Positions 8,753-51,174 of a stretch of DNA of 64,000 bases are shown here, in pieces (position 1 is the first letter of the stretch; each line of letters begins with the position of its first letter). Below the pieces are notes generated by a model. The model was not told the DNA's origin. It did not search any database and saw only the letters and a program-made list of their open reading frames with translations. The position numbers and the translations under genes are program-made. The stretch covers positions 3,720,001 to 3,784,000 of the forward strand of contig OY725502.1 in assembly GCA_963281255.1 (NCBI GenBank), read 5' to 3'. The stretch is from Aphrocallistes beatrix. Taxonomy: Eukaryota; Porifera; Hexactinellida; Sceptrulophora; Aphrocallistidae.

Positions 8753-10537
8753 TTAAGTCTCAGGTTTTGTGAGCGGGTTCTGAATTGTCGCTAGAATGGG
8801 AGGTAGTGGATGCACTTTGACCAGGGATTGCCGAACTCTGTCTGTTCTTGGAGCCGAAGATGGACCATCCGGGAATAAATGGGCCTGTGATCGGACTGGA
8901 GATTCGACGATGGGCCTGGTGGAGTGATCATATTTCCCTCCTTGTTGCTGAAGAAAAGCTAGAATGGAGTTAATTAAATGCAACTAAAATGGTCAAATAC
9001 ATTGAAATATTTAAAATGGAAAACAATTGTTAAATATAATTCCTAGCTTTTGCATTTTGAGGTATCTATGATGCATTTCAGACAATTTCATGCTGTTTTG
9101 AATATCAATACCTTTTGAAAAACAGGGTTATATAACATTACAGTATAGGAATGTTGATTGAAATAGTTACAGAGCCATCGTACTATGCTTACACTATCCC
9201 TGGGGTTATTGTTTTAATGACAAATACACTCTAGAAATATAAAAATGAATAACATGAATACGAGGTCCATTGGAGTCATTTTATCTACCAATTTATTATC
9301 AAAGTAAGTGGGCACAAAACATACTTTCTCATTAACATGATATATCCGATGCTATTTTATACACTGAAGTTCTATGGATGGGAATGTTATTGCATTCAGA
9401 AGCTTATGGCAAATTTCGAGCCACACGATAGCATTTTAACTTTTCGGATGATTGGACGAATTTTAAAAAAGTAATGGTTCAATTAAAATAAAGTGAAGTA
9501 CCGCTCCATGTATCGTATTTTTGAGGTGTTAGTGATATCTCGGAATCTTTTTGCTGTCGCAAATGATCTGAACGTTGTAGGTTGCTCTGAATGTTCTTGA
9601 GCACTGTTTGCCTATGAATGAGGTACAATAGATAAAGATGAAAACTTCAATAGATATCAGAGAAAAACTGATTGAAAAATGACAATAAATGTATCGAGTT
9701 AATTAACATTTTTTGAGACTACCTTTTCTTCCTCTCAGTAAGGAGTAAACATTCACTTTTGTGTTCATCCCAGTCGGCTACCTGGCATTCCGCAGAGCAG
9801 TATGCCTGTCCATGACACCTGGAACACTCGAAGAATGCGATCTTTCCACAACAACAGAATACTGTCCTAAACGCATCGTCTTTGGGGTTGCAATATTTTA
9901 TGATTAGTTCGTTGTCGTACACAATTCTTAGGAAATGATTGTTCTCCGTACTGGGATCAATCTATATGGATAATCCAGAAATAATAGTAATAAATATTTG
10001 TTATGTACAAACGTTAATCTATCTAGAGGATATTATATCGCGCCTGAATTTCACCATTGGAACTAGTCAAGTAGTTAACATATATCCTTGACCCCTCCCA
10101 TCTACCCGGGATAATTTTGGGTCGTCAGATGCCAGAGAATTTTTCAATCCCATCCACCTTCTATGCCCGTGACCACAATAAACTATTACAGTATATACGT
10201 AACTAATATCTAAAAATATAATATTCGACGGATTTTACCAGTTCTCTACGCTTGGTTAGGAAGTAGAAAGCTTTCTTCTCAAAATGTTCTGGAAACGCAT
10301 CTAACAAATAGCCTCTAATCTCCCTCAGTCGAGAAGAAGGCGCCAATTGGATCTTCCCAATGTTATCTTGTAGTCCGGAATTATTTATGACTGATATATT
10401 GAAAAATAAACCATCAGTGGTCTTAGCACTCTCTTCAGATAAATGGTCATCAGAAGGAGTGGGAGCGATTAATCTCCTCGATTTCGTCTTCTTCCGTTTC
10501 CAAACGCAATATAGGATTATCAAAACAATAACGACAA
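8753..10537 (-). other. Receptor membrane exit and cytoplasmic tail with MYND finger (exons 24-27)
   Basis: Exon 24 completes the membrane span ([17 protein letters not shown], stop-transfer basic cluster). It then encodes a segment that looks like a small alpha-beta domain ([43 protein letters not shown]); a ubiquitin- or doublecortin-like fold is possible but unproven. Exon 25 encodes a MYND zinc finger (residues about 6638-6673: [20 protein letters not shown], then [13 protein letters not shown]). The first cysteine pair is shifted by one residue from the consensus. Exons 26-27 are polar and Pro-rich ([19 protein letters not shown]). MYND fingers bind PxLxP-type peptides, so this tail could recruit scaffolds or corepressors. 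Confidence 0.7.
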
Positions 10538-13500
10538 CTAAAGGAAAACGAAAATATTATAAATGAGAAAAATAACATGAACTGGCATTGATTTAATCCT
10601 GAAGAACTATCTTTAAGGCATCTTTCTTTTTTTAATGGAGATGTGCCTATTTAGATACTTTTTTGAAAGTTTCTTGTTTTGTTTGTTATTAAGTAAAGTA
10701 AAGTAAAGAAAAAACACACATACCGAAAAACTCACTAATGAACTAAGGAACCATCTTACCTGCTACAATGAATACAATCAAAATGACAATAGTAGCACCT
10801 ATCGGTGCAATCGGAATGCCAACATTAGCGACAGGTGCAGAGGTTGTCGTCTTTGTAGTAATAATAGTAGTCGTGTTAGGTGGCATTGGAGTGGTTGCTA
10901 TTGTGGACGGAGTTGTGATAGGAGATAATGGTAGTCTTCCTAATGCGTATTGTGTGAAATGGGTGTAACTACATGTTATGTGGCTAGGTATTAGGTCATA
11001 TATGGTGTGTGATTCCACATTCCATTCTGATGACATCATATTCCTGTATAGACAGAGGTAGATACTCTTGGAGATTGATTGGTTTGGTAGCAGAGTGAAA
11101 TTAATCAATATTTGGTCATTAGATAATGTGATGTCAGCTGTCGAAATAGGATTCTTGAGGTGTAAAACTACAATTTCAGACAGGAGATTTAATTCTTGAA
11201 AACTGAAATAATAACTGTTAATTGACGGTGATATTTCCATCTTTGAATTTCCAGCAATTTCTACCAAAGAAAGCCCAGTTAAAGGTTCCATTTGAACAAA
11301 ATGAAAAGTTGAACACAATCCGTTACATCCATATAAGGAATTAGGGTTGCAATCCCAGTCAAAATACATTCGTGCTAGGTTAGCTGGGAATGTAATCGAT
11401 ATTGTTCTGCATTGATCTGTTCTGCACTGGTAAGTGTAAGGATACAGGTAACCATTGGAAAAGTAGAATTCAAGTTTTGAAGAGGAAATACTAATTGAAT
11501 TTGAGGCAAAAAATGAAGATTTACATAAAATATTGGACATCTGGTTAAGGATAGAGTATATTGCAATCGGATCTGTTGTGAAATTATTTGGTAGATTCTG
11601 CAAAATATCGAGAATTTTCACGACTGTTCTGTAATCGTGAGGGATGATAAGTGGCTTTGGGAAGGAACGTGAGGAGGATATTTTAATAGAACTTAAAGAG
11701 TAGGAAATATCAGTGGAGATGCGTAATAGCAACTGTAGAAATTGGTCAAGGTATTGACTTGGTATTTGGTTCAGGCTGAATTCGGCCAGCAAATCTAAAT
11801 AGAAACTGTATGCGTACTGTGTTTGAGGAAGAAAGTATAACTCGTTGATCATAGTGAATATAATTCCCATCGTATCAGGCGTAGCAGAAAGTGGGTTGTG
11901 CTTGAGACTGAAGATTAAAGTTGATAGACGAGGCCAAACTTTATCTAATTCCTTGTTTTGTGCAAATTTTTGTGTTGTAGTCAATAACGATGCGAAATTA
12001 GCCACGTTATTACCATTAGCAGTGTTTATAGTAAACGACTTAGAGATCTTAATAGACTTGTCTAACGAATTGAACACAGAAACAGAGAGTGTAGCTGTTT
12101 TAGCCGCTGAGGTGTCAACGAGTGGAGGAATAAAGATGAGTGCGGAAAAGATGGAACGAGGGTGTATAGGAATCTCTTCAGAACCATCGATTGTGTATGT
12201 AAACTCATAAGTTAATGTGTGCAACGGATCCAGAAAGTCCTTCGCAGTTAGTGTTATTTCATCTGATAAGGGGAGGCCAGAAATTTGACTTAGAATAAGT
12301 TGTCCAGATCGAGGCGGTACATTGCTATACAGTGTAATGGAAGATTTGAAGTTGTTTTGTGACGTCATTGCATTGATACTGAATGTGTAGTTGATATAGG
12401 GATTGATGAGACTGGTAGGAATGAATAGATTCAACTCATTCCATTGAGCGGGGAATATGTGAATCTGGGATGTTTCTAGCTGTGGAGTTGGTTCTGTACT
12501 AAGTTGGTAAGAGTGTTGAGTTGATAGAGATTGCAGTGAGAGATATCCTTGACCTAGAATTTAAAAAAATGAGAAATAGAAATCAAAACGTGTATGACTT
12601 AGTACGCTAGAGGGCGTATGGGGGTATGGGGGTATGGGGGTATGGGTCCATGGGCTCCCCAAAACGATTCCGAGTGGCCATACTAAATAAATACGATTAT
12701 TTTTCAATAAAATATTGGCACTATCATTAATTAAATCTATTTTTGCCCCCTCCCTCCCCTACCCCTCCAACTAGTGAATCGAGTATAACTACCTTCAATC
12801 TGTTCACATTGCCAAAATACATTAATCAGATCCACAACTCCTCTAACACGAGAAGACAGTACTAATACGCCATCTCCCGGCAATTCATATACAAATGGAG
12901 TTATGTATAAACTCGGGACATCTGTGTTAACGACTGATATCCTAACAGAGTGAGTAGAGAGAGAAGAGAGAGTTAGTTGGAATAAGTAGCTTCCAGTTGC
13001 TATAAGAGTTGTAAAAAACTAATATAAAATTCAATCTGTTAAAACAACACATATTAATCGAATAACTATGTTGATTAGATTTAGTGAAGAACATTTCGTA
13101 AGATTTTTTACACAATAAAGTTCTTAGAATTGTTCTAGCATAGGAAGCTGACTCAATTATTGGATCAAATTCTGGGAAATTACAAAATACGCACTTGATT
13201 ATAATATAAGACTGGTGTAAGGATGATGTCAATGATCAATTATACTCATTTTGATGATACAGAGGATATCTCTATCATCCTAAAGGCTCCATAAACCTGT
13301 ATCTTCCTGAATAAACGGATGGATAGTACAAATTTGGAGTTCACTTAATCTGAAAGTAGTAAACTGCTGACTCCATTAAGAGATTAAGTTTCGACATTTT
13401 ATTATACACAACCAGGTTAATATTGCTATGCATTTATCGTGGTAGAGATGTCTTTATAGACAATCTCGCTATGTTAACTAAGGAATCACTAATTGGCCAT

Positions 13501-16500
13501 TGTACTACGTATCCAACGTAGGAGACTTTACAAGACACATAAAATAAGTGGAAACTGCGTTGAGTTTCCTTGTTAAAGCATACATCATTTGATTGAGATA
13601 ATTAATTATACGAACAGTACATAGGAATTTAATCTTGACCGAGGTGTTGGATAAATGGAATTAATGTATAGACCTTTGTTGACTTGTTGACTAATTCATG
13701 AATTATCAATGAATTACTCAAAATTTGAAACTAAAAAAATGAGAAAAATATTTGATATTCGCTTAGGGACTGAGCAATGTTAGAGGTATATAACATGAGC
13801 AACCTTTTAACCACTTTTGGGCATAGAATCTGCACTAATGTTTGAGATTTTGAATAATTCATAATTCTTCATCATCTTTCAATGAATTAGTTAACTTATG
13901 TATAGACCAACTTAAAGTTCGGAAATATATTTGAAAATTAAAAAATAAATTACACACATATACGTGCATACTAGTCAAGGTTGGTGAGACATAATTTTTT
14001 AGTTTTGAAAAGAGTTTTTTCACAAGACCTTGTAAAATCTCAGGCCTGCTGTGCCAAAAATATGACTTAGCAAAGTCGAAAACCTACCTAATGATAATGC
14101 TGGAAATGCGATTTAAAAAATTCGCTATTTTATTCAACTTCAATCTAGTATTTAATATTTCACACATATATTCAACTCACCTAATTGATTCGATTCGAAT
14201 TCTTGAGTTAATGAAGATGAACTAAAGTCCAAGACATCAGTAATCCCTTGGCTAGAATCTTTACAAGGTATCAAAGTACCGAACTCAAAACACTCCCAAA
14301 CAATTTGCTGAGAAACTCCCGGGGTTAAATCCATTAAAACGGAAGACTGAGCGTCTAATACCAACATTTGATTTCTCCCAACTTCTCTGCTACCACTTTC
14401 GATTATTGCAATGGGAGCAGGTGAGTCAACGAAAATAACTTCTTGTCTCGTCAAAGATGAGCTATCAAAATTCACTTCAATGGATATAACATATGAAAAT
14501 TCTGGTGTCAGATAATTGGGTGGGATTAGAATTGAACTAGAATTGCTAACAAAATCAGAAAGTGACAGAGATACCATCGCGTTTGAGGGCAAAATCTGTT
14601 CAATATTCCATTTGAAAGTAAACTCTCCATTTCCCGTTGGATAACGTAATTGTACGGAGAAAAATATTTGCTGGGTAGAAACAAAATTTGTAATTGGATT
14701 TGAGATCAAAGTAATTGCGTGTGTTGGGGAGTTGTTTTTGGTGATGACCTTCTCAGTTGATTCACTTTTAATGCCAAATGAATTGATCACACATAAAATG
14801 ATCTTGTATTCCACTCCAATCGTAAAATCATTTGAATCTAAAACTAATTCTTCAGTTGTGACTGGAAGTTGTGCGAGTTTCCGCGATGCGCTAACGAAAT
14901 CAAATTCAACACTCGAAGGTAGAATGTCCCAAATGAATTGGAATGGTTTATACCCGGTAGGGTAGGAGAACTGAGCTGAAAAAGATGCACTTCCACTATT
15001 TGGGATTGTGTTTGGGCCAAGTATGATAGGAACAGGAGTGTGAAGGGGGGAAGGTAGTTGTAAACGTGTGGGAGTCGATAATGGATATGAATTCGTCTGT
15101 GAGAGAGTGAAAATGCTGTTTGGTTTCCATCGTAAAAGAGAATTATGTCTTATAGTCGCGTCAGTGGAAAGAGTTATCAATAACCGACTATGTCCACGAA
15201 TAAAATCGCATTGCGATGTACCTAATTCATTAATAGTATCATTATCAAACATAGCTAAACAACCAAGTGAAATAGCCTCTGTCAAAAATATTGCATTTTC
15301 AAACTGTATTATAATGGCGGCAAGATTTTCCTGAACTCTGCTTTCCACTACGACAGGCTGAGGGTAAAAGAAAGAGAAAGGAAAATTTTCGGTGGGAATA
15401 ATGCCAACCATCTTTCCATTGATACTAATACTGATGGTGACCTGACATGGATTTTGAGCTGGTGGGATTAAACACATTAACTTTCCTGAGTGTATGAATA
15501 CAGCTGAAATCACATAAAAATCTGAATACGTCTGGCTACATTGAGAAAACCCATGAACTATACAGGAAAGGTAATCAAATGAATCGAAATTCTCAAGATC
15601 GAAATATATCTCAGTTTCTTGCCCTACTAAATTAGAATTTAGGCTAGCAGATAGAACGGAGAGTTTGCGTACATTATTATCGACCAAATGCAAAGTTAAA
15701 GAGTTTTCTGGGGTAATCATTGTTGTATCTTCAAACTGTATTCTCAAAGAGAGTTGATTGTTATCGGACAAGAAAACATCAATGGGTGTATCACACAAAA
15801 TTGTAGACTGATCTACATACAATCCTCTTAGATTCTTAACCAAATCGGTTTGATCGACAGAAATACCAAAAATACAGTAAAACTGAATGAAATCGATGCT
15901 GCTAGGTCGTTGCCTGATGCCCCCGCAAAGAGGATGATAGGAACCGTTTGGGAATTTTGTGGGTGTGCTTGAATCTGGATTGAAAAAGAATCCCCCTCCT
16001 TCTACTGTGATGGTTGTACTCTCCCCAGCTAAGAAAGCATTGGGAGTCATTCTAGTTACCTAAATGGAGAGTTTTATAGTCAATTCAGAGAGAAAAAATT
16101 GTCTAATCTTGAGCTAAAATTTGTTCGGATAAATTTCGATGCCCTCATATACAAAAAAATATAAATACAGTCGACTCCGCTTAATCGGGCCACTTTTGGC
16201 AGGACCGGAATAGCTCTCACACATAGAAGCTAATACAAAGCATTTTCGGTTAATAGGATTCTCTGCTTAATCGGGGCAAAATGTCCTCTGACCGATGTGA
16301 CCCTATCAAGCGGAGTCGATTGTATCTTCTCATCACCAGACAAATTATAATTAATCGGATAATTAAGTTTTAATATTATTGCCTCACCGCGACAGGTGTG
16401 AATGTAAGAATAAGGGCTGAATGAACTAATTGAGAATACTGTACAATCCCATATATGCGTATTGCAATCTAATTTAATTATGAAATCTAACCTCAAAACA

Positions 16501-37500: not shown

Positions 37501-40500
37501 TTTGGAAAAGTGGCTTGAATTCGCGGTTAAAGGTCAAATTAGAAAACAATTCGCCTAAAGATTGAAAAAAAAATGTTTCATATAGAATATAAAAATTACA
37601 ATATATAGTCGACTCTTTTAATAGGAATAAATCGGTCAGGACATTTTATTAAGCGGAGAACCCTATTAACCGAAAATATTTTGTATCAGCTTCTATCTGT
37701 GAGAACTATTCTGGTCCTGCCAAAAGTGGTCCGATTAAGCGGAGTCGACTTTATATTTAAAGAGTATCATAGTCGACTCTGCTTAAGTCTCGATATTTCG
37801 TCGAAATTAAGCAGAGCTCCAAATCAACCGAAGTAATTTAGTATTATTTTCTATGAATGGGAAAAATTCCGTTCCTGGATATATGTCTCAAATAAGTTAG
37901 ATTAAGTGGAGCCGACTTTTATAAGCAAATGTTAAATGGTAAATGACATTTCACCTGAAGTTGCATTAATAAAGAAGAATTCTCCATCCAGTACAGTTCT
38001 ATTGATAGAAAAGAAGAATACTCCTGCATCTCCAGTATCAGGATCAGTGGCCGTTATTGTCGTAATGTAAGTAATTGTAGGTGAATTCTCGTGGATAGAG
38101 GTGTTTATGGAGGAGGAGGGGAATTGAGGAGGCGTGTCAGGAGAATCTAGCAGATATATCGTAATGTTTGTAGTATCATTCTTTGGTACTGGATAGCCTC
38201 CATCATATGTGATTATTTGGAATTGAAGATTATTCCTAGAGAAAAATGTAACTAAAAATCTAAAACTCAAATTTTGAAAAAAAAAATTCAGCCTATTAAG
38301 TTGTATAAGCACCTAATATCTCTGTCTAAACTTGTATTAACAAATACTGCCCCTGTCATTTGATCAACATCCAATGTACCAGCCAACCCACACATGTTTT
38401 CATAGCAAAATGCTTGATTTCCTCCTAGAACGAAGTATCTAACTTCTCCGTTCAATCCCCGATCACTGTCCAATGCGGTAACATTCAATACGACGGTGTA
38501 TAGAGGAGTGCTCTCGTTGATGGTAGCAGTGTATTGCGGCTGAGAGAATATGGGAGCAGATGCGTCAGGTTCATGGACCTATTGAATAATTATATAAATA
38601 GTATACATAAGCTATACTACTGCACGAATCAGGTTGTATCCTATACAGACAACAGATAATATATAAATTATTGGATACTTGACCAATACATAATACTGTT
38701 GACTTTGGTGGTTGTTAGCATCAATCTTCATACGCATTTGCCTTGTATATGGTAAATGCGCTACTGCAGAGTAACATCCAAAGTATATGCACATTATGAA
38801 GTTAAAACATACACAGCTATAGCAGCAAACTGCAAACACTCTATCATATATGTACATATATCTTCGTTTACACTATGGATTTTATTTTTTTATTTTTTTA
38901 TTCAAAAAAACAACATTGGCATTTGTATATCCTTACTATTAAAACTCGATTAATGTTTGTATATATAAATACATATATTATATATGTAACGAATTGATTG
39001 AAGAAACTGCAGGCGCAGAAAGCTGATTTTTGCCATGTGGGAGTCTTTTGGCTATGGCTCCAGTAAGTTCTGAGCTCATACGAGCTCAGATCCTTATAAT
39101 TAACCAATGTGACCCCAGGCGACCGAAGGGAGCCTCCGGCGGACACAAAGTGTTCGCCAGCCGCGCAGCGCAAGCAAGCGAAGCGCGCTTGTGAGTAATT
39201 AAAGAGTACATAGTACTCGTATTATAAGTAAAATTTGAATGAAATCTGACTGGTCTTTGCTAATCATATGATGGTATAGAGAATTTGAATTTTTAATCAC
39301 TCACTCTTATAGAAATGTTAGCGGAGTCATATCTGCGTAGACTCGGTTCAGCATTGTCCATAGCTGTGAGAGAATAGTTGTACCATTCCTGCTGTGGCGA
39401 GTAACTCACTACAGCCGTGAGTGTGATGACTCCCGTGTTAGAATCAATAGAAAATGGTGTATTAGTGGGGGGTGTTAACCCATATGAAATCTGAGCATTC
39501 GTACCGATATCGTCATCTAAAATCAGCAAAAAATAAATTATTCGAAAAATCAAAGGAAAAAAGGAAAATCATCTTTATTAAAACTTGTTTTGACCACTGG
39601 AACATGTCTGTTTTCTAATTTGATGCTGCTGTAATATTAGCAATGCATCACGAGTCTATTTTGTCATGACTATAATATGAATAAATATGTTTTTATAATT
39701 CAGATCTACTCGTTCTGAATTATATAAAATATTTATTCATGATTACGGTCATTCTCTATATAAAAACTAGAAATATCCAGACAGTAAGCTCTGAATAATT
39801 AATTAGGCAGCGATTAGGATCAAAGCGATTGCTTTCAGATGATTGTAAATCTCAAGTTCCCAAGGTAAACAATACAATGCTCCGTAAACAGTCGCAATTT
39901 TAGCCTGGGCTAATGTTGGTCGGAAATTATTATAATCTACGTCTCTGCCCTCATCTAAAGTAGGATGCTATACCACAGCGGTATTCAAACTGAGGCTTCT
40001 CATATCTAACATATTATTAGCATGATTTTACTGTTGGGGGTACACAGAGAGTTCAAAAACAGTCTGGGGGGTACGCTTGGAAAAAAAGTTGACACCACTG
40101 CTATACCATATATAATAATTACTGGCAACATTTCATTATTTTCCAATGTTTATTGCGAATCGGCAATGATTTTTCAATAAAATCTAATAATGAATAATAG
40201 TGGCACGTGCGAGAATTAAAAGCAACATTACTTTTAAAAATAATCATCAGAGTAATATCATGATAGGCTAGTAGCTAGCACAGCTATACTATACTCTTCA
40301 TCCACTATACATAAGACTTCATTATAATGTCTTACACTAGTAACTAGCTGAGTTTAGTCAATAGGCTCTCGTATGTGACCAATAAAACTACATATAAGAA
40401 ATAATCATAATCTGATTCATTTTCTCTTTGAATTTCGTGATGAAGACGTGGATGCATATTTTTTACATCCTTTTTTATTTCACAGATGCATTTTCGATAC

Positions 40501-43500
40501 GAATTTTGTCAAAACCTGGAATTATGATACGTAAATTTCCTTACATAGCAAATGCTAATTTCTCACGAGATGTGATAGAACAATGTGACGTTCCTTGTGT
40601 GTGGACAGATAGGCCAGAAAACGCGGATGCTGTATTTTTCCTTATGATGCACAACACCCATGCTATAAGAGCATTTCGTGACGCTAAATTTGCTTCCATT
40701 TCGATAGGAGGTTCCAGTGAAGGCGCACATTACCATTCTCATTTGACAAATAAAGAGTTTTGGCAACATTTCGATGCCAGTGCGTTATTAGCTACTGGCT
40801 CTGATATCCCTTGGCTTACACAGATTTCAAGTTATGAAGAGATACAAAAAGTAAAGTCAAACCCTAACCCGATCAAAAAGGGAGCAACCGTAAGCTTCAA
40901 CTGTGAATCAAAAAATAGTCGAGAGAGAATCGTAATGGAAATGGATGCCATCCATCCTATTGACCGTATAGGCAAATGTCTGCATAATCACCCATGGCCC
41001 AATTGTGGTGACAGAATATGTTCCAAAGAGGAAGCATTGAGAAGATATGCGCTGTGTTTCGCTTTTGAAAATGGAGATGTTTCAGGCTACGTTACGGAGA
41101 AAATTCATCAGTGTTTCAGAGCGGGATCTCTACCTGTCTACTTAGGAACAGACATGGTCACGAAATATGTACCAAAAGGGTCGTTCATCAATATGCGAGA
41201 TTTCCCCTCACACATCGCCGTAGCTGAATATCTCGTCAAAGTTCTCAACAATGATAGTCTATACCGAAGCTATTTTGAATGGAAGAATAAACCTCTTGAT
41301 CCAGAGTTCGTACGTCTGAATAAACCTTTTTGGGATTCTACCATTTTCTGTCGGGTCTGTCGTTATGTCGACGTAAAGAAGAAAGGCTTGACTTGGGATA
41401 AAGAGACACAGAATGCAGTGGAGTATCGATCGAATGAACCGATAAAACCAATTGAAGCATCATCAACAATTGGCTCATTATTATCTGATGAGATTGGTCC
41501 CACCAAAGAGATTAAAAACACACAGAAGCGATTTATCGAAACCCCAGAACATGATTTTGTATACATAAAAACGTTCATCCAAGCAAGTATATTCTTTTCT
41601 CTGATCCTCATTACATATATTCTCAAACGACGGGGATATTTGAACAATTTCTTCAAGTTTGTCTCCGATACAGCTTCAAATTCAGGGTTGAGGTAATGAG
41701 TTTTTAAATATTAATGAAATATGTGAAATCTATTTATTAGTTTTTTGCTTATATAAACTTTATTAAATGCAAAATCATATCATAAAGCATAAATTTATTG
41801 GATACTTTATTCAAGAGATCGATGGAAACCAAAATTATACTTCTAGCTTCTTCTGCTGAAGAGGATGCGAATTTTGTAATTCAGAATTTTTAAATTAATG
41901 TGGGCTCTTTAGTTTGAACTTTGTCCGTTTAATCAAGATTTATTGTCTATGGACAAATCGATGAACTTTATAATGCTGATTATACAAGTAAATGCACTTA
42001 TCTGGTCATCTTACAGCTATACTTTGCACTGCCATATTGAAAGGCATTCATAATATCATTTGTACATCATATGTATAAGGAGATGATTTGTAGGATCAAT
42101 AAACTTTAAGGATGTGGTTATTAATTTCAAAACTCGAACCTCATTTTTAAATTCTAAAAGATGTTAAGATTAACATATACGAATATATTCATATAATAAT
42201 ATTCGAACTCAATTCATTGGAAACCTCTTCAAGTTGACTGATATGCGAGTTTTTTAATTTTATACTTGCCAAGTGTCCCGTTTTTTGGATTCCATGTATA
42301 AACTTTTCCATTGCGTTTCGCCATGTCCCGCGAAATTCAACGCTGCGTCCCGCTTTTATCATGGCTCAGGTTGGCATGTATGTAATGTATTATAAAATAT
42401 TATCTGAGTTGACTAATTCATGAATTATCAATGAATTACTCAAAATTTGAAACTAAAATAATGAAAAAATTATTTGATATTTCGCTTAGGGACTGAGCAA
42501 TGTTAGAGGTATATAACATGAGCAACCTTTTAACCACTTTTGGGCATAGAATCTGCAATAATGTTTGAGATTTTGAATAATTCATTAATTGAATAATTCA
42601 TAATTATTCATCATCTTTCAATGAATTAGTCAACTTAGAATATTATGGAATATGACCACATATTAATATATATATATATATATATTCTGACTTGACTTAC
42701 CCATAGCGGTTATTACTGATAAAACAAAACCTACACTCTCAGTATCAAGAAAATGTAGTTCGAAATAACTTGAATTAAAAGTAGGAGAGTTATCATTCAC
42801 ATCCTGTACTGATATGTTAATTGAGGAACTTGAAGTGTGAGCTTGAGCCTCTCCAAGATCAAATACGAATAAAGTGAAGTTGAACCCATCTCTTGTTTCC
42901 CTATCTAAACTCTGGATGAGGTAAAGAGACCCGTTCTTTGTGTCAATCTCAAAATGAGAATGATTTAATGAAAACCTAGAAGATAATTGAATTATAAGTT
43001 TTCAGAAAAGTATAATAGCTTCCAACCATGAGATTCCTGAAATTTATCTTCCATTCCATTTGATGAATTACAACGTATTGGTGGGTTTCATTTAAATGAA
43101 TTAAATTAATATTTATTGAAAAATGATGTGAGATTAACTGTGCTCATTAAAAGAAGATTGAATGCGTTTTATATTAGTTCGAAAATGTAAAAAAATAGTC
43201 CATTTCTAAAAATCAATAGATTTTACCACCAACCAGGGACGCCGAAATTTGGGAACCATCAGCCGATTGATGGGGCTTATTACAGGGTTGCATCTAGCCA
43301 CCCGTCAGGGGGGGTTAGCCCACCTGACCTCATTTATCCCCCTCTGAGAATCGAAAGTCTATCCAGGCCTACAGTAGCCACCCCCTCAAGGGGGATAGCA
43401 CCCTGAAAAATATTTATACCTTCTTGGCCCCCTCTGAGATCCAGGATTGGATCCAACCCTGATGGAATTCCATTATTAGAAAAAGTATATATCAAAAATG

Positions 43501-46500
43501 GATACTGAATACTGGGAATTAATTTATATAGCTTCTAATGCTATAGGAATACACAACAAATAAACTAATCCAATCATCCTACCACTGAAATGCCTAGGTT
43601 ACTACATAGAAAAGAAAATTTCTAATTATCTTTACTGAACACATAAGTCAGTCCGCATTTGCCACAGTATTGTCTATCGAAATGCGCAGCCATAAAGACG
43701 CCAGCTCCACACTCCTCGCTGGTGCATTCTCGTCTCAATCGAGTGACTTTTCCATTGTCATCGACTTTATAGAATTTCAAAGCTAATAGAACTTCCTTCT
43801 TTTTCTTATGGTGGTTCTTCTTTGGAGTGGAGTATTGCTTCTTTTTGCGCTTTTTCGCACCTCCGCTGAGTCCTAGCGAGAGATGAACTGTTGCTTCAGA
43901 CTCAATCCCACATTCCAATACCGTTTTCTCGTCGTCTAGCTCGTGACCTGAGAACAAGAGTCGTTGCGAATCTGTTGGGATGCTGGTCTTCTCTTCAATG
44001 GAGAGTTTAACGTCTTCGATGGTAGAGTTTGGGTCGAAATCGATCGGGATTGATTTCCCCGTTAATGTGTTCACGTAGAAACACATATAAACTAATTCAA
44101 TCACAAAAATAGGATTTAAATATATATAAAGCGAGTTTACCTTCAATATTTCGTTCTCCTAATTTCAATAACTTTTGTATATCGGTCTGGTAAAGTTCAA
44201 AATTGGTTGGGTTGTAAGCTAAATTTGTTCTGACTATATACGTATGAAAATAAGCTGAAATGTCATGCATTGGCCCTGTTATGGCTCAACAGATCTTGGA
44301 CAGTGGATGAGTCTAAAATCCTGTTACAATTGAAGTTGTTTTTTTTTTGTCGCTAGGTCTCTGTAAACATTGTTTTATTATTAGTAATAACTCCATTACA
44401 AAATATTCGGGGGGAATTTTGTTTGCCTTTTTTCGTTGCCTAGGCTATGAACTCAATTGAACAAAAAAAGTTTTGGCCAATAAGCAAAAGCTTAAAAAGT
44501 AGAAACTCATAAGCCTTCTAATGGCCGTTAGATCTAAGTCTATATACTAATGAATTAAAAAATTTCACATATATAACTATCATGTGGTTCACTTGATCAG
44601 TTGATAATGTTATGGGAGCATTTTGTCTAACTAACCTGATTGTTCCGTTTAGACCTTCATCTGGATCCGAGACAGAGAAAGTATACACACTGCTACCAAC
44701 CATCGTATCCTCAGAAACTGGAATGTCGAAATGGTCCATGGAAAACTTCGGAATGTTATCATTGATGTCGGTTAGAACTAAGGTTAGAGTGAAGTTATCA
44801 GAAAGACGTGGTTGCCCATTGTCTATGGCTATAATATTGAGTTGAATGACGGCGTCTAGGTCTCTATCCAGAGAGGAAGATACGCACAGTTTCCCGGTGA
44901 TAGGGTGGAGGGAAAATCGGTTAGATTGGTTAGATTGAGCCAAGACATATCTGAAGAAGTTGTGAGTATAAAAACAGAATTTAAATTAAGAATACAGTCA
45001 GGGTCGCTTATTGTGAACCACCAGGGGACCAAAAAATCTGTTCATAATAGAGATACTTCATATTAAGCGAACTATAATTAATACAAATCCTATCTAAAAA
45101 TGAAATTGGGACCAGGAGGTTAGTTCATAATAAACGAATGTTCATAATAAGCGACCCTGACTGTATACATTTCAAAGTTTTTTAGACAACTTTCTTAAGA
45201 ATCTGGTGGTATATCGTTTGAAAAATACAGAAATATTGAAAAAATCTGAAATGTATACCAAAAAGTTTGAGAATAATTGCCACACTTTCCATTGGAAATT
45301 GAAAATAAATTCTAATACGAAAGATTTAACAACTCACTCAATCTCAGCATTTGATCCATGGTCCAAATCAATACTTGTAACATTATCAATGAGAACAGTG
45401 TTGATGCTAACTGACTCGGGAAGTGTGAGAGTGAAAGATGACGGAGAGAGGATGACTGGAGCATTATCATTGATATCTACAATGGTGATGTTTAGTATGG
45501 CATAGGTGGTCAGTCCTGGACCGTCTGAAGCACTGATATTCAATACGATTCTAGGCGTCGAGTCAAAGTCGATTGAACCGTTCAGAACCTGAAAATGTTA
45601 GAATACAGTTACATTCCATTAAAATGCGTTTAAAATGAGAAATAGTTTATGTCAAATGGATCCAATTGAATCTTAAAAAATATTTTAAGATTAAATTGCA
45701 AGAAAAGTCAGAAAATTAACAACATTCCGGAGGGATTTTTAGAATATATTATTACTCTAATTGACTAGGATAAAAGAAAATCTTTCCTGTATGGTTTTAA
45801 ATTGACATTTTGTGGGATAGGAAGCCATTAAAATATTCAGTCGATGATCTTAATTGTATTTTACACAAGTACATAATAAAATTCGTAAAGTTAATGGGCC
45901 ATTCTATTCCGAGGAAGAGTAATTCAGAAAAACATTGCAGTAGAATAGGAAGGAATCAAAATAAACTGTGACTCCAGTGTTTCCATGGAGCAGTGATATA
46001 AACAAACTAATCTGACACAATGGATATTAAAAATTAGACAACGTTATTATAAATTAATAAATTCCACTTCGAGTAAAACAATTGAACCCGATTTTGCCAG
46101 GGTTCAATTCTATTTATAGAATAGACCCCACACTTTTACGGTTTCCCGCCCAAAGTGACTTAACCAGAAATGAGTTAATGAGCAAAATCCTTAGTTCGAC
46201 TCGGGTTAAGACTAGAGAGGATAAATGGTAAAAGTTGCTGTTTTTTTGCACAGTAAGTATTAAGTAAATATTATTTAATTTTTCTATTAATTAATAGGCG
46301 AAAAATTACGTTTTAGTATCCTAGATAGAGTTCAATGGAATTGTATAAAGCCGTTTAGAAAGCCAAACATTAACATCAGTTCCATGGAACTGAATTCTTC
46401 CTAACTAATTAGTATTTTAACCTTTATATCTCCACTATCCACGTCAATATCGAAGTAACCACTGCCTTCACCAGGTACAATACCATACAACACTCTCCCA

Positions 46501-47819
46501 TTATCCACAGTGTAGTTCAAGGTGGATAGGACTTCTCCATTTATATCCTGCTGCTGCTGTACTAGATCTGGATCCGTAGCGTTGATGGAGATAACGAGTG
46601 TGTCTGTAGGAGTGTATTCTGGTAGAGAGATGGAGAGGAGAGTGCTGGGGAATGATGGAGCATTGTCATTGATGTCTTGTATTGAAACAGTGAGAGTAGT
46701 ATTAACCGAATTGCCTAGAGAATGGTATTAATGGATATCATGACGGTTTTGCATGAAAAATCTGTCGTTTTTATGGAAAATAAAATAATATACACCAACC
46801 GGACAAAAGTATTTCAACACTTGATTCTTTCCCATACAAATAATACTAAAATGGGTCTATTCATGAAGAGGTTACTTCTAAACGGTATGTGATACAGCTG
46901 ATCGGATTCCAGATTCGAATAATACGCATTCAAATGAGTCACAGGTTAATTTTTTAATTAATCACTCATTCCTAACTTTTTGTAATTATCAATCAGTGCC
47001 ACCTTATGCCACATACACCCATTTTGACCACTATACATGATGGCAATGAATTACCTATGGTGGCTCAGGCTGACTTAAGATTGTTCATTGAGTTGAGTAA
47101 TTTATTAGATATGTTCAACTATTACTAATTCGAATGTGTAGATTTCGAATCTGAAATCAGATTTTTAGTATCTCTTTGAATTTGAACGTATTGTCTTTCA
47201 TGAAAAAATCCGCTTTAGTATTATTTGTATGAGAAAGAAGTGTTGAAATACTTTTGTCCGTTTGGTGTAATTTTGATATAGCAATATTGATCAATATGCC
47301 ATAATTACAGGAACGTGGACACCTGGGGGGGGGGACTTTTTTTTCCCTCATATACGGGGTTCTCTAGCCACTCAGGGGAGCTGTTAGCCCCCTCTCCCCC
47401 TGATTCCAACTTCAAACCCAAACTTTTAAATCATGTCTACGCCCCTGAATCATCAAACTAATGGAGACAGAAAAAAAAGGATTTGAATAAAAATTACCAA
47501 TATCAGATGTATAAGAAATAATAGAAACAAATTGTAAAGGAGTGCCAGGGGTTTCTCTATCAATAACAGATTTGGTAGTCACGAGTCCAGTCAAAGAATC
47601 GATTTCAAATTCATCTGAATTTAGAACATAAGTGCCTGTAGTAGAAGTGGGCTGAAAATCTTCAGCTTGAGCTCTCAATACAGAAGTGCCAATAGGAGAC
47701 TCTTCATTCAAATTGGTTGAGTATGGTACGTTGAAAAATGAAACTTGTCCATTTATGGATAAGGAACCAAATAATAGAATGAAAAGAAAAAGTGAGTATC
47801 GACCCACATGTGATGGCAT
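8753..47819 (-). CDS. Giant cadherin-REJ-GAIN-MYND receptor
   Basis: One minus-strand gene of 27 exons, reconstructed by matching GT-AG sites and phases. Exons: 47819-47498, 46714-46422, 45588-45338, 44950-44636, 42975-42701, 39516-39305, 38578-38313, 38235-37955, 37554-27355, 26726-26653, 25266-24150, 23749-23583, 22945-22446, 22385-22264, 22198-22024, 21832-21558, 21036-20784, 20551-20414, 17205-16995, 16671-16492, 16059-14181, 12999-12793, 12553-10760, 10537-10239, 9961-9723, 9611-9502, 8958-8753. The total is 20,361 nt, in frame, 6,786 aa. Order: signal peptide ([20 protein letters not shown]), about 39 cadherin repeats, Cys-rich and WQY modules, CGVCGG repeats, IPT-like, REJ/PKD, degenerate GPS, Thr-rich stalk, one membrane span (about 6483-6516), cytoplasmic tail with MYND finger. 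It is inferred to be a calcium-dependent adhesion receptor at the cell surface. Two adjacent genes cannot be wholly excluded without transcripts, but no start, stop or phase break separates the parts. Confidence 0.75.
12616..12647. repeat. Short tandem repeat GTATGGGG
   Basis: Three to four tandem copies of the 8-bp unit GTATGGGG lie in the intron between exons 22 and 23 of the giant receptor. It is G-rich on the plus strand and C-rich on the transcribed RNA. Confidence 0.7.
13675..13900. mobile_element. hAT-like MITE, family C copy 1
   Basis: About 226 bp, flanked by TATAGACC (13667-13674 and 13901-13908). Terminal inverted repeats read about TTGACTAATTCATGAATTA on the left and the inverse AGTTAACTAATTCATTGA on the right. 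The body is nearly identical to the copies at 23052 and 42404. It has no coding capacity and sits in the receptor intron 13000-14180. Confidence 0.75.
16166..16324. mobile_element. pogo/mariner-like MITE, family A copy 1
   Basis: About 159 bp with TA ends. Left end TACAGTCGACTCCGCTTAAT; right end is its near inverse (AAGCGGAGTCGATTGTA). CAGT-starting inverted repeats next to TA are typical of Tc1/mariner/pogo elements. It lies in the intron between exons 20 and 21. Confidence 0.65.
16701..16840. mobile_element. Possible degenerate TA-flanked element
   Basis: TACAGTGGAGTTCGCTTATT followed by repeated GCAACT/GCAAT motifs resembles the family A and B element ends. I cannot find a matching right end, so this may be a truncated or decayed copy. 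Confidence 0.3.
17968..20319 (+). CDS. Receptor tyrosine kinase with SRCR and EGF domains
   Basis: An intronless 783-aa frame lies inside the intron between exons 18 and 19 of the giant receptor, opposite strand, ending 94 bp before exon 18. A signal peptide ([17 protein letters not shown]) is followed by an SRCR-like domain ([34 protein letters not shown]) and an EGF module ([12 protein letters not shown]). One membrane span follows at about 260-290 ([18 protein letters not shown]). The juxtamembrane region has Tyr motifs and a PPTY site. The kinase starts near 492: [12 protein letters not shown] (K524), HRDLAARN (D624), DFG (642-644), activation-loop [22 protein letters not shown] marks a tyrosine kinase. 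The first P-loop glycine is alanine (VASGNFG), but all catalytic residues are present. Sponges have large RTK families with varied ectodomains; no specific vertebrate orthologue is claimed. Confidence 0.9.
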   Translation: MNDYRTMHFCILIFFTIFSYVISETCAREGDVREYEENDLIQVCSDTGGGLQWTFVCVNGWDNQGDSNVNIFCKRSGYLGAQNGNFKNCVFETNGTVKLTSVDCAGGETSLTQCTHSTTTEECELVANVRCRMCSNSGNCPVTRMCTSRSCGCLNTCRNDSFCFDQMCVCQPGFIGESCDNLSVTSNNRENQPISTEVQSTPTTPRTSSRPMGMPPDRDNLQIIPNPDMDSNNINPTPDCFSIDCEKSSYEGFKNLNLILGTSASAVSIIFCASLSIVAIFIGIFWSWNRKKSQRNSVVYSNSRVDPESNRNSTVPNRASIEITESYPEVIERPPTYADSIYEELPLTETLRDNNASNEPRNSHHYLNLPQLSTDQFSIQTEFSFLTPLESAVNYETPNTFETKMTPTEMEENALYLGIEGRKEDEDSIYHVITQSEIAHVRSAQIMEVSILESLKFDNTGSLMTEYVDPPYHLEELENNIREGSFDIPIEKLSILEIVASGNFGVVYRAVFSNKYGEIPVAIKTLKDEANNNTKVSFIREAAILAQFNHPNVLSFIGVVTKTAPYMMITELLKMELKDFLLQLNNTNLIVNEKEKISKLLTRFCKEIAFAMEYLAKKKFIHRDLAARNVLVAKDLTCRLADFGMCRGMRSADYYTSNGGQIPLRWTSPEAILYMKYSEKSDIWAYGVTMYEIWTLGNRPWPNETNNTIVGYILNGQNLPKPTHCSNEIYEIMLDTWKQEAKERPTFSQLIRKLDDSTTKRESVYVIEDIDEVLDESYVEMAN
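20611..20682. mobile_element. Minimal palindromic MITE, family A copy 2
   Basis: A 72-bp near-perfect palindrome with TA ends: TACAGGTGACTCCGCTTAAT pairs with ATTAAGCGGAGTCACCTGTA around a short spacer. The ends match family A except GTGAC for GTCGAC. It lies in the intron between exons 17 and 18 and would fold into a strong hairpin in the transcript. Confidence 0.7.
21240..21321. repeat. Inverted repeat (hairpin)
   Basis: Two arms of about 37 bp (left includes AACCAATCAAATTTGAG, right its inverse) flank a loop of about 9 nt in the intron between exons 16 and 17. The outer arms diverge slightly. Most likely a short palindromic MITE. Confidence 0.65.
21404..21460. repeat. Palindromic repeat, TGATCAAAATATACA family
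   Basis: CTGTATATTTTGATCAGAAA is inverted as TTTCTGATCAAAATATACA around a short spacer. The same motif recurs at about 23920-24076, so this is a dispersed family, probably a MITE. Confidence 0.55.
23052..23270. mobile_element. hAT-like MITE, family C copy 2
   Basis: 219 bp flanked by a perfect 8-bp duplication ACCCAAAG (23044-23051 and 23271-23278). Left end CTAAGTTGACTAATTAATGA; right end CAATGAATTAGTCAACTTAG. It lies in the intron between exons 12 and 13 of the giant receptor. No coding capacity. Confidence 0.85.
23446..23543. repeat. Diverged inverted-repeat element
   Basis: AACCGTCTTTCCCTGAATAA is roughly inverted as GCGTTTATTCGGGGAAGACG about 55 bp later. It resembles a decayed MITE. 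No target duplication was found. Confidence 0.35.
23917..24076. repeat. Palindromic repeat, TGATCAAAATATACA family, copy 2
   Basis: Nested inverted repeats centre on ATTAATTAGTATTGA: AATGTGGAATTT pairs with AAATTCCACATTTCTG, and several TGATCAAAAT-type motifs flank it. It shares its end with the copy at 21404. It lies in the intron between exons 11 and 12. Confidence 0.5.
25433..25554. mobile_element. piggyBac-like MITE with TTAA ends
   Basis: 122 bp bounded by TTAA on both sides. The inverted repeats of about 31 bp contain the palindrome TTGCGCATGCGCAA followed by TCGTCACA. TTAA is the target of piggyBac transposases. It lies in the intron between exons 10 and 11, just upstream of a hAT-like element. 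Confidence 0.65.
25570..26107. mobile_element. hAT-like non-autonomous element, 538 bp
   Basis: Flanked by a perfect 8-bp duplication CTCTTGTG (25562-25569 and 26108-26115). Left end CAGGGTTACCAT; right end inverse CAGGGTTGCCATC. Internally it has GTCCTTTTT-rich tracts and a perfect 14-bp hairpin at 25934-25964 (CATTATATTGGATC). It carries no transposase frame. The 8-bp duplication and CAGGGTTGCCA termini are typical of hAT elements. Confidence 0.85.
26354..26395. repeat. Perfect 19-bp hairpin
   Basis: GTTTTGACAGAAATGGTCC, loop GGGT, then its exact inverse. About 55 bp upstream is CAGTGGTTCCCAACC, a hAT-type terminal motif, so this may be part of a decayed element. Confidence 0.6.
26767..26848 (-). 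tRNA. tRNA-Ser(GCT)
   Basis: 82 nt, no intron. The acceptor stem GACGAGG pairs with CTTCGTC. The A box (TGGCCGAGTGGTTAAGG) and B box (GGGTTCGAATCC) are intact. The anticodon stem ATGGA-TCCAT holds CTGCTAA, anticodon GCT, decoding AGC/AGU. The long variable arm (TGTGCTCTGCACG) is typical of class II serine tRNA. It sits in the intron between exons 9 and 10 of the giant receptor on the same strand, so polymerase III would transcribe inside a polymerase II intron. Confidence 0.93.
26909..27086. mobile_element. mariner-like MITE, family B copy 1
   Basis: About 178 bp with TA ends. Left TATAGTCAGGGTCGCTTATT; right end is the near inverse (AATAAGCAACCCTGACTGTA). The internal sequence, including GAGATACTTCA and ACCAGGAGGTTAGTTCATAA, matches the copy at 44993. 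It lies between tRNA-Ser and the duplicated tRNA fragment. Confidence 0.75.
27101..27123 (-). pseudogene. Duplicated 3' fragment of tRNA-Ser
   Basis: 23 nt identical to 26764-26786: the acceptor and T-arm end of the nearby tRNA-Ser plus 3 bases of its flank. Because flank is included and no CCA complement is present, this is a DNA-level duplication and not a retrotransposon primer-binding site. Confidence 0.6.
27355..37554 (-). other. Single 10.2-kb exon of tandem cadherin repeats (exon 9)
   Basis: One uninterrupted exon encodes about 3,400 residues. I count about 32 cadherin boundaries, most reading DxNDNxP ([33 protein letters not shown]). LDRE and the A-x-D-x-D calcium motif recur in most repeats. 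A few boundaries are degenerate ([28 protein letters not shown], and a stretch near [11 protein letters not shown]), so those repeats may bind calcium weakly. It starts after TTTAG at 37555 and ends before gtaagt at 27354, both phase 1. There are no EGF or laminin-G modules, unlike Fat; long pure cadherin arrays recall Dachsous. Confidence 0.9.
37605..37754. mobile_element. pogo/mariner-like MITE, family A copy 3
   Basis: Left end TATAGTCGACTC; right end AAGCGGAGTCGACTTTATA. The internal sequence near CTGGTCCTGCCAAAAGTGG matches family A copy 1 in inverse orientation. It lies in the intron between exons 8 and 9, immediately next to copy 4. Confidence 0.55.
37769..37922. mobile_element. pogo/mariner-like MITE, family A copy 4
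   Basis: Left end TAGTCGACTCTGCTTAAG; right end TTAAGTGGAGCCGACTTTTATA. About 15 bp separates it from copy 3, giving a tandem pair in one 400-bp intron. Confidence 0.5.
38579..39304. other. Receptor intron 6 with a GC-rich island
   Basis: A 726-bp intron. Around 39105-39195 the base composition changes sharply to GC-rich, with motifs such as GCGACCGAAGGGAGCC and GCGCAGCGCAAGCAAGCG. It resembles the end of a mobile element or a SINE, but I cannot delimit it. The rest is AT-rich, with no gene. Confidence 0.4.
39976..40100. mobile_element. hAT-like MITE, 125 bp
   Basis: Flanked by a perfect 8-bp duplication CTATACCA (39968-39975 and 40101-40108). Left end CAGCGGTATTCAAACT; right end inverse CAGTGGTGTCAACTT. 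No coding capacity. It lies upstream of the nested fucosyltransferase. Confidence 0.8.
40440..41696 (+). CDS. GT10-family alpha-1,3-fucosyltransferase-like protein
   Basis: An intronless 418-aa frame on the opposite strand in the intron between exons 5 and 6 of the giant receptor. The ATG at 40440 is chosen because upstream in-frame codons lack an ATG. An N-terminal hydrophobic segment ([16 protein letters not shown]) acts as signal or anchor. The GT10 donor-binding motif is clear at the centre: [15 protein letters not shown], then [12 protein letters not shown] and [11 protein letters not shown]; family members move fucose from GDP-fucose to N-acetylglucosamine-type acceptors in the Golgi. 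A second hydrophobic segment lies at the C-terminus ([20 protein letters not shown]), unlike classic type II fucosyltransferases, so the enzyme may be anchored at its C-terminus. Acceptor specificity cannot be read from the sequence. Confidence 0.8.
   Translation: MKTWMHIFYILFYFTDAFSIRILSKPGIMIRKFPYIANANFSRDVIEQCDVPCVWTDRPENADAVFFLMMHNTHAIRAFRDAKFASISIGGSSEGAHYHSHLTNKEFWQHFDASALLATGSDIPWLTQISSYEEIQKVKSNPNPIKKGATVSFNCESKNSRERIVMEMDAIHPIDRIGKCLHNHPWPNCGDRICSKEEALRRYALCFAFENGDVSGYVTEKIHQCFRAGSLPVYLGTDMVTKYVPKGSFINMRDFPSHIAVAEYLVKVLNNDSLYRSYFEWKNKPLDPEFVRLNKPFWDSTIFCRVCRYVDVKKKGLTWDKETQNAVEYRSNEPIKPIEASSTIGSLLSDEIGPTKEIKNTQKRFIETPEHDFVYIKTFIQASIFFSLILITYILKRRGYLNNFFKFVSDTASNSGLR
42235..42380. repeat. 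Possible decayed hAT-like element
   Basis: CTTGCCAAGTGTCCCG at one side and a loose inverse (GGTTGGCATG) at the other, with GTCCCGC motifs within. No clear target duplication. Lies in the intron between exons 5 and 6. Confidence 0.25.
42404..42638. mobile_element. hAT-like MITE, family C copy 3
   Basis: 235 bp flanked by a perfect 8-bp duplication AATATTAT (42396-42403 and 42639-42646). Left end CTGAGTTGACTAATTCATGA; right end CAATGAATTAGTCAACTTAG. The body is nearly identical to copies 1 and 2 except for a short duplicated AATTCAT segment near the right end. Confidence 0.88.
43283..43461. repeat. Inverted-repeat element with CAGGGTTG ends
   Basis: Left end CAGGGTTGCATCTAG; right end inverse CAGGGTTGGATCC. 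The interior has two imperfect units containing AGCCACCC and CCCCCTCTGAGA. Similar motifs occur at 47345-47405. No target duplication was found. Confidence 0.4.
43622..44086 (-). CDS. RPS27A: Ubiquitin-like / ribosomal protein S27a fusion
   Basis: A 154-aa frame on the same strand as its host gene, in the intron between exons 4 and 5. The ATG at 44086 is chosen because it aligns exactly with ubiquitin residue 1 ([11 protein letters not shown]). Residues 1-76 have ubiquitin length and end in GG, but are strongly diverged: K48 is His, K63 is Ser, K6 is Asn, K29 is Leu, R72 is Gly and R74 is Ser. K11, K27, K33, L8 and H68 remain. Residues 77-154 are a well-conserved eS31/S27a: basic linker [14 protein letters not shown] and the zinc finger [17 protein letters not shown]...[10 protein letters not shown]27a is a small-subunit ribosomal protein; the N-terminal moiety is normally removed by cleavage after GG. 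C. elegans UBL-1 shows that a diverged ubiquitin here is viable. Confidence 0.9.
44993..45165. mobile_element. mariner-like MITE, family B copy 2
   Basis: 173 bp with TA ends. Left TACAGTCAGGGTCGCTTATT; right AATAAGCGACCCTGACTGTA, a near-perfect inverse. It is in the intron between exons 3 and 4 and is the more intact of the two copies. Confidence 0.8.
45589..46421. other. Receptor intron 2
   Basis: An 833-bp AT-rich intron, phase 0. I see no gene, tRNA or clearly bounded repeat in it. Confidence 0.5.
46791..47269. mobile_element. Tc1/mariner-like element with long inverted repeats
   Basis: 479 bp with TA at both ends. Inverted repeats of at least 55 bp begin TACACCAACCGGACAAAAGT on the left and TACACCAAACGGACAAAAGT on the inverse right end, with GTATTTCAACACTT following in both. 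CGGACAAAAGTATTT-type ends are common in Tc1/mariner elements. The centre has no transposase frame. It lies in receptor intron 1. Confidence 0.75.
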
Positions 47820-50436: not shown

Positions 50437-51174
50437 GATATAGTATATGCTATGGATTTTGGAACGCTTTAAAATTAAAATTTATGAATATTTGGTATTA
50501 GGTCATAGAGCAGTAGCATTTTAAAATCAGTGAATAAGTAACATGATATACACCAATATGCAAAGTACTCAATGCATAATACTTGATCAGTTTACTAATG
50601 TATAATGTTTTACAAATATACAATATGTGTAGTACTAGCTACTCCTAATTTACTAATTCATTCCAAAATGGCGAGGGTTATGATTATGACTCTTCAAGTT
50701 TTCGACCAAAAAAAGAAAGTTTTATAATAATCCATTTATAATTTATGAATTAACCAATTTGAAGGTAAATACGTAGTATTGGTATCTCTTTCACTAATTA
50801 TAAGGACAATCCTCAACCTTACTTTTATACATTAATCGCGGTAACGCAACACACATTCATTGCATTAATGACGAAGCCTCTCTGAAAATGATTTTGGTTA
50901 TCCACGACTAACCAACGATAAGTTATGCATAAAAATTGGTCCTTTTCATAGATACAAAAAGTATCAGTCTTCAAATTGAGGTTACAATAGGTCATTGTTA
51001 ATAAATGATCATTACAAGATACCATTTTTTTAGCATTTTACAAAAAGAGAAATATCGAAGGATCATTTATAAACAAAACTAAGACTAAATTAAATTATAA
51101 TTCTTCTATAACTTCACTTATTGTTTACATTAGTTTCTTTATTCCATCCCTTTATCATGATTCGATGATACAAG
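50437..51174. other. Intergenic region before the RNF213 homologue
   Basis: 738 bp of AT-rich DNA between two plus-strand genes. It should contain the 3' end of the ADF-H/Rab transcript and the promoter of the RNF213 homologue. No gene, repeat or RNA stands out. Confidence 0.45.

Follow-up and report, generated by a model that had tools for sequence, protein, structure and literature searches.

Very long cadherin arrays followed by a single membrane span are the common architecture of Fat and Dachsous, while adhesion GPCRs carry seven spans after their GAIN/GPS region. In the PKD1/sea urchin REJ family, as described in PMC1934368, the REJ domain is said to define the family and is followed by the GPS position before the first span; the PLAT domain and the multi-span channel part are given there as not universal, and SpREJ1, 8 and 9 as having one predicted span. 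A combination of cadherin repeats with REJ is in print for a demosponge. The figure legend and text of PMC3620549 (2013) attribute EC repeats, VSP, IPT, REJ and MYND to an Amphimedon queenslandica protein filed as dachsous, which is evidently XP_003386184.1, and VSP, IPT, REJ and MYND are entered in the dachsous figure as occurring 'only in A. queenslandica'. The same paper places A-C domains at 5114-6215 aa of this protein, states that convincing clustering with either fat or dachsous was not obtained, and describes two EC-rich Monosiga brevicollis proteins (XP_001747521.1 and XP_001749260.1) as containing its 4900-6300 aa region and a Branchiostoma protein of 2,603 aa as containing the A-C domains.

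The window analysed here is a stretch of 64,000 nucleotides from a glass sponge (C16:3720001-3784000), and genome-wide searches covered 28 contigs (100.5 Mb). The curated reconstruction of its minus strand between 47819 and 8753 yielded a gene of 27 exons (20,310 nt, 6,769 aa) with no internal stops, and the phases matched at all 26 introns of the chain from 47819-47498 to 8958-8753. This independent rebuild reproduced the exon number, matching phases and in-frame total proposed in the initial annotation, but not its length of 6,786 aa, which was 17 aa off. The predicted protein consists, in order, of a signal-peptide-like start, 39 cadherin repeats, a Cys-rich/GxWQ/CxxCGG region, IPT, REJ, a degenerate GPS, one span and a MYND tail. 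We consider it probable that one glass-sponge gene here encodes a single-pass adhesion receptor of about 6.8 thousand residues belonging to a cadherin-REJ-MYND kind. The exons are as follows:

47498..47819, minus: exon 1, start codon, signal-peptide-like stretch (by hydropathy only, hydrophobic aa 10-29) and first part of cadherin repeat 1
46422..46714, minus: exon 2, cadherin repeats 1-2
45338..45588, minus: exon 3, cadherin repeats 2-3
44636..44950, minus: exon 4, cadherin repeats 3-4; donor 44636 hand-picked from phase and repeat continuity
42701..42975, minus: exon 5, cadherin repeats 4-5; acceptor 42975 hand-picked
39305..39516, minus: exon 6, cadherin repeat 5
38313..38578, minus: exon 7, cadherin repeat 6
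37955..38235, minus: exon 8, cadherin repeats 6-7
27355..37554, minus: exon 9 (10.2 kb), cadherin repeats 7-39 and first Cys of the Cys-rich module
26653..26726, minus: exon 10 (74 nt), Cys-rich junction exon, absent from the automatic parse
24150..25266, minus: exon 11, Cys-rich module and first GxWQ module; no Pfam family
23583..23749, minus: exon 12, GxWQ region; coding score slightly under background
22446..22945, minus: exon 13, second GxWQ module, running on across the intron
22315..22385, minus: exon 14, from the curated chain
22024..22198, minus: exon 15, first part of third GxWQ module
21558..21832, minus: exon 16, second part of third GxWQ module
20784..21036, minus: exon 17, CxxCGG-type Cys repeats
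20414..20551, minus: exon 18, CxxCGG-type Cys repeats
16995..17205, minus: exon 19, CxxCGG-type Cys repeats
16492..16671, minus: exon 20, CxxCGG-type Cys repeats; donor 16492 hand-picked
14181..16059, minus: exon 21, IPT/TIG and first part of REJ
12793..12999, minus: exon 22, middle of REJ; hand-placed, by eye like the C11 paralogue; coding score under background
10760..12553, minus: exon 23, end of REJ, pre-span region, degenerate GPS with HFT triad, start of span
10239..10537, minus: exon 24, remainder of span and juxtamembrane tail
9723..9961, minus: exon 25, MYND zinc finger; boundaries hand-placed
9502..9611, minus: exon 26, tail, weakly supported; frame test not in favour
8753..8958, minus: exon 27, tail end and stop, weakly supported; coding score under background

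A gene finder, free to end and start genes, was applied to 47835-9500 after masking RPS27A and two ORFs of the opposite strand; it is crude, was partly trained on the exons of the giant gene itself and needs these masks. Its unconstrained parse was a single 27-exon minus-strand gene, identical to the parse forced to one gene. Both ends were equal for 19 of the 27 curated exons and one end was common for three, while five had no automatic counterpart (26726-26653, 12999-12793, 9961-9723, 9611-9502 and 8958-8753, the last of which lies outside the stretch searched) and were placed by hand according to splice score, phase and domain continuity. The automatic exons 43504-43382, 25494-25475, 20722-20678, 16416-16388 and 9818-9765 were discarded, as each either disrupted a module (cadherin, Cys-rich or MYND) or was unnecessary for phase. 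With a coding model derived from five further ORFs of the window, the assigned frame was the best of three in 26 of the 27 exons, the sole exception being 9611-9502, and exons 23749-23583, 12999-12793 and 8958-8753 scored below background even in their own frame. Six poly(A) hexamers were found within 623 nt past the stop at 8753. Overall, the model, built from genomic sequence alone, makes it very likely that the predicted giant receptor is one gene. A multi-gene reading is kept alive by four other genes within its introns, two of which (RPS27A and tRNA-Ser) are on the same strand:

43625..44086, minus: eS31 (RPS27A) with a divergent ubiquitin part, in intron 4; the only eS31-part copy found in an exon-by-exon genome search
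26766..26848, minus: tRNA-Ser(GCT), in intron 9, identified by ARAGORN and Rfam
17950-20319, plus: SRCR and tyrosine-kinase ORF of 789 aa, in intron 18, on the opposite strand
40416-41696, plus: GT10 fucosyltransferase ORF of 426 aa, in intron 5, on the opposite strand

The ubiquitin part of RPS27A is approximately 45-47% identical to the best ubiquitin copies of the genome and ends in LSGG, and five partial look-alikes of tRNA-Ser(GCT) (78-86% identical) occur elsewhere in the genome. If RPS27A lay at a true gene boundary, exons 1-4 would be a separate small cadherin gene. The same-strand position within intron 4 of the only copy found with an eS31 part would fit this, as would the manual joining of exons 4 and 5; however, cadherin repeat 4 (aa 355-458) is split over the exon 4/5 junction and aligns there end to end with the whole model (i-E 4.4e-32) in matching phase, and a separate gene at this end appears very improbable.

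Regarding exons 9 to 11, the two junctions that the initial annotation had singled out for testing were confirmed in the sequence: GTAAGT follows 27355, CTATAG precedes and GTGAGT follows 26726-26653, and CTTCTAG precedes 25266. Past the last cadherin repeat, which ends at aa 4131, exon 9 continues with NNASYCY, the 74-nt exon 10 supplies four Cys and exon 11 carries on Cys-rich, such that the share of Cys goes from 0.3-0.4% in the cadherin array to 6.0% in the next segment. When the gap was shuffled (first-order) and searched with the same splice thresholds as the real sequence, 275 of 1,000 shuffles gave any phase-matched open exon, and one of 1,000 gave a phase-matched exon with at least four Cys in at most 30 aa. 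The 2,088-nt gap contains one poly(A) hexamer, versus 5.1 expected from the introns of the gene.

These exons also bear on a reading with two genes, in which a cadherin-array gene would end near 27338 and a separate Cys-rich/IPT/REJ/MYND receptor would start between 27355 and 25266. A paralogue on contig C11 has REJ and MYND without cadherins, reading past the exon 9 donor meets a stop 14 nt into the intron and would leave a secreted array, 13 ATG frames of at least 20 codons lie in the gap, and the 74-nt joining exon was not picked by the automatic parse, which put the 20-nt exon 25494-25475 in its place. Against this, the Cys-rich sequence starts already in exon 9 and remains in phase through exon 10, poly(A) signals are few in the gap, the left gene of the split would have no membrane anchor, and the start ATG of the best split (26791) sits within the tRNA-Ser(GCT) gene. 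The split parse was worse under all four prior settings, the one-gene parse beating the best of 13 split points (27300-25300) by 12.2, 13.7, 8.7 and 5.2 nats, respectively; these margins are indicative, since this gene contributed to the training of the scoring model and the priors were our own choice. The Amphimedon protein is also reported with both halves in the description of PMC3620549. We thus regard two genes as quite unlikely and retain a single gene.

At the domain level, with 20 repeats of the window protein as seeds, an HMM identified 39 cadherin repeats over aa 28-4131, in agreement with the approximately 39 originally noted, although the count is partly circular because the seeds were taken from the same protein. 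Repeats 17 and 34 were weak with this HMM (i-E 0.0017 and 0.0028, respectively), 16 and 17 were partial, and all gaps between the 39 repeats were shorter than one repeat. Pfam alone called 30 cadherin repeats above cut-off in a 3,435-aa frame and eight in the first 798 aa. The Cys-rich part had no Pfam match and can be likened to 'VSP' by position and Cys content only. The three GxWQ modules matched no Pfam family, their best E value against solved structures was 0.37, and neither the piece with the Cys-rich part and first GxWQ module nor the CxxCGG piece had a genome match outside the window at E ≤ 0.01.

The Pfam REJ profile matched the joined exons with E 1.2e-21 (profile positions 55-429 of 452), compared with 1.5e-9 and 1.3e-8 for two single exons unspliced. 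IPT/TIG scored 21.3 bits, just above the cut-off of 20.9, when a short piece was searched alone and was absent from the longer Pfam scan. GPS was likewise absent from the longer scan; a 73-aa piece searched alone gave it as the sole family at E ≤ 10, with 13.7 bits against a cut-off of 22.5. Visual inspection shows this GPS to retain the HFT triad, a Trp, the first Cys and one member of the CxC pair, and to lack the other two Cys. Hydropathy indicated one hydrophobic span at approximately aa 6476 besides the N-terminal stretch. In the tail, MYND was above the Pfam cut-off (30.9 versus 22.7 bits, E 2.8e-7), with the match beginning at profile position 4, and its nearest solved structures were the MYND domains of ZMYND10, DEAF1 and SMYD3. 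The stretch preceding it looks ubiquitin-like by eye and matches no Pfam family. The list of modules that had initially been joined in one protein is therefore upheld for cadherin, Cys-rich, IPT, REJ, the single span and the cytoplasmic MYND finger; no PKD repeat was called in the Pfam scans, and the GPS module, while keeping its HFT triad, is degenerate and scores under the cut-off, which leaves the initial label of a GAIN receptor putative.

Seven of the eight MYND zinc ligands fit the usual spacing by eye. The first Cys pair is C-x-C rather than C-x2-C both in the window protein (aa 6622-6656) and in the C11 paralogue, and this is a possible shared mark of this kind of receptor; in the paralogue, too, profile position 4 is where the Pfam match begins. 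A weak match to the tail at C10:3728202-3728558 (E 0.006) was rejected as a receptor relative, as it reads as a MYND protein, presumably of ETO type judging from its motif.

The length of the cadherin array raises the alternative of a true Dachsous/Fat orthologue that gained modules and acts in planar polarity or Hippo input. The Pfam FAT4_N and CELSR2-type cadherin models do score, and the Amphimedon relative is named dachsous in PMC3620549, but any long array might score with such cadherin sub-models. No LamG or EGF match came from the Pfam scans at E ≤ 0.01 and E ≤ 1, which together covered all but 22 residues, and the tail gave no Cadherin_C match at E ≤ 1, whereas REJ, IPT and MYND, in which the window protein differs from Fat and Dachsous, are present. 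Orthology with either is therefore unlikely in our view. The likeness to the PKD1/REJ family lies in REJ, followed by the position of a degenerate GPS before the span, and in the single span, which SpREJ1, 8 and 9 are also predicted to have; the window protein has no PLAT match (Pfam, E ≤ 1), no 11 spans and no PKD repeat, and cadherins and MYND are added. Its one span also sets it apart from the adhesion GPCRs.

A REJ profile search of the genome returned three matches at two loci. The second locus, C11:112427-117790 on the minus strand, is a paralogue with one uninterrupted 1,788-aa frame containing TIG, REJ, GPS, one span and MYND, in which no cadherins were seen. It aligned to the window protein with 24% identity over 635 columns, the E value of 2e-24 being optimistic because composition correction and masking were off; the MYND region and the span matched with E 1e-11 and 5e-5, respectively. 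EGF-like repeats can be seen by eye between its GPS and span, and they scored 15.6 bits with Pfam, under the cut-off of 37.5. Its GPS is above cut-off, yet the H-x-T triad reads E-L-G by eye, which is the reverse of the window protein. Since this paralogue lies in a single frame, the coupling of REJ, span and MYND is real without splicing, and since it is cadherin-free, the C-terminal half can exist alone. No relatives were found in the viral contigs or prokaryote genomes scanned. Regarding GPS more widely, the genome contains 77 GPS-motif matches, among which that of the window is not included; many are located on C4 (5.67-5.89 Mb) in short frames of approximately 120-200 aa, which suggests an expanded cluster of GPS genes.

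Compared by published description, the window protein is a second member of a little-known sponge cadherin-REJ-MYND kind. The Amphimedon protein, from a demosponge rather than a glass sponge, likewise combines cadherin repeats, a Cys-rich part (VSP), IPT, REJ and MYND at a similar size, according to the legend and text of PMC3620549. The initial annotation had known of no described family combining a cadherin array with REJ/GPS, and this claim to novelty fails, as the entry for the Amphimedon "dachsous" lists cadherin repeats, VSP, IPT, REJ and MYND. A literature search that left most subscription papers outside its reach returned no further description of cadherin, REJ and MYND together beyond PMC3620549. 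With the present locus, that figure-legend entry gains a counterpart of resolved anatomy from a second, distantly related class of sponges. This unnamed kind is perhaps older than sponges; if the choanoflagellate report holds, in which two EC-rich Monosiga proteins are described with the Amphimedon region, part of the receptor predates animals.

Cadherin repeats are 4-4.5 nm long, stiffen with calcium and bind partners, and MYND fingers bind proline-rich peptides. We tentatively suggest a possible mechanism in which binding by the cadherin rod loads the REJ/GPS stalk and the MYND finger recruits a scaffold. The calcium-stiffened rod, which would measure approximately 150-180 nm at 4-4.5 nm per repeat, may bind a rod of its own or of a different type on an opposing membrane or on matrix. 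The resulting load would run through the REJ/GPS stalk, which, by analogy with polycystin-1, might be cut between HF and T and remain attached until pulled, and the MYND finger could recruit a proline-rich peptide partner and so couple binding to a cytoplasmic scaffold. PMC1934368 describes the GPS sites of SpREJ3 and human PKD1 as cut, with the two halves staying together. A mechanosensory role for the giant receptor would be a reasonable but tentative reading.

A broader reading, which we hold to be doubtful, is that of an overlooked pre-animal family in which a cadherin rod, a still-cleavable REJ/GPS stalk (the HFT site kept, one GPS Cys pair gone) and a MYND scaffold would have persisted in syncytial glass sponges, beside a cadherin-free paralogue without the triad, as a force-released sensor and not a junction protein. 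Within this reading, a sensor would be favoured over a junction protein because the C11 cleavage triad is lost and because glass sponges are described in PMC10280926 as having syncytial tissues and apparently no conventional adherens junctions. A giant cadherin in such an animal offers a place to ask what these rods did before cell-cell junctions, and the locus is of value mainly for how adhesion receptors evolved before cell junctions existed.

Further giant cadherin frames were present on C8, C9, C12, C14, C16, C18, C19 and other contigs, with single frames reaching at least 4,716 aa among the 150 of 510 candidates scored, a large number for an animal whose tissues are syncytial. Elsewhere in the window, a fibrillar collagen with a COLFI domain occupies 4071-8125 on the plus strand in two long frames, and, past the giant gene's 5' end, an open frame of 3,166 aa at 51169-60669 on the plus strand weakly matches a dynein-type AAA domain around aa 2114. 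Contig C28 is mitochondrial (17,996 bp) and carries a 78-aa frame that we take to be atp9. In its cox1, none of the 13 AGR codons falls on a mammalian Arg (five Ser, four Ala, three Gly and one Asn), as against seven of the nine CGN codons. This AGR pattern matches the glass-sponge code and, with the atp9-like frame, makes a hexactinellid host very probable: PMC2267718 describes glass sponges as keeping atp9 and reassigning AGR to Ser, a reassignment for which it knows no case in demosponges and other lower animals.
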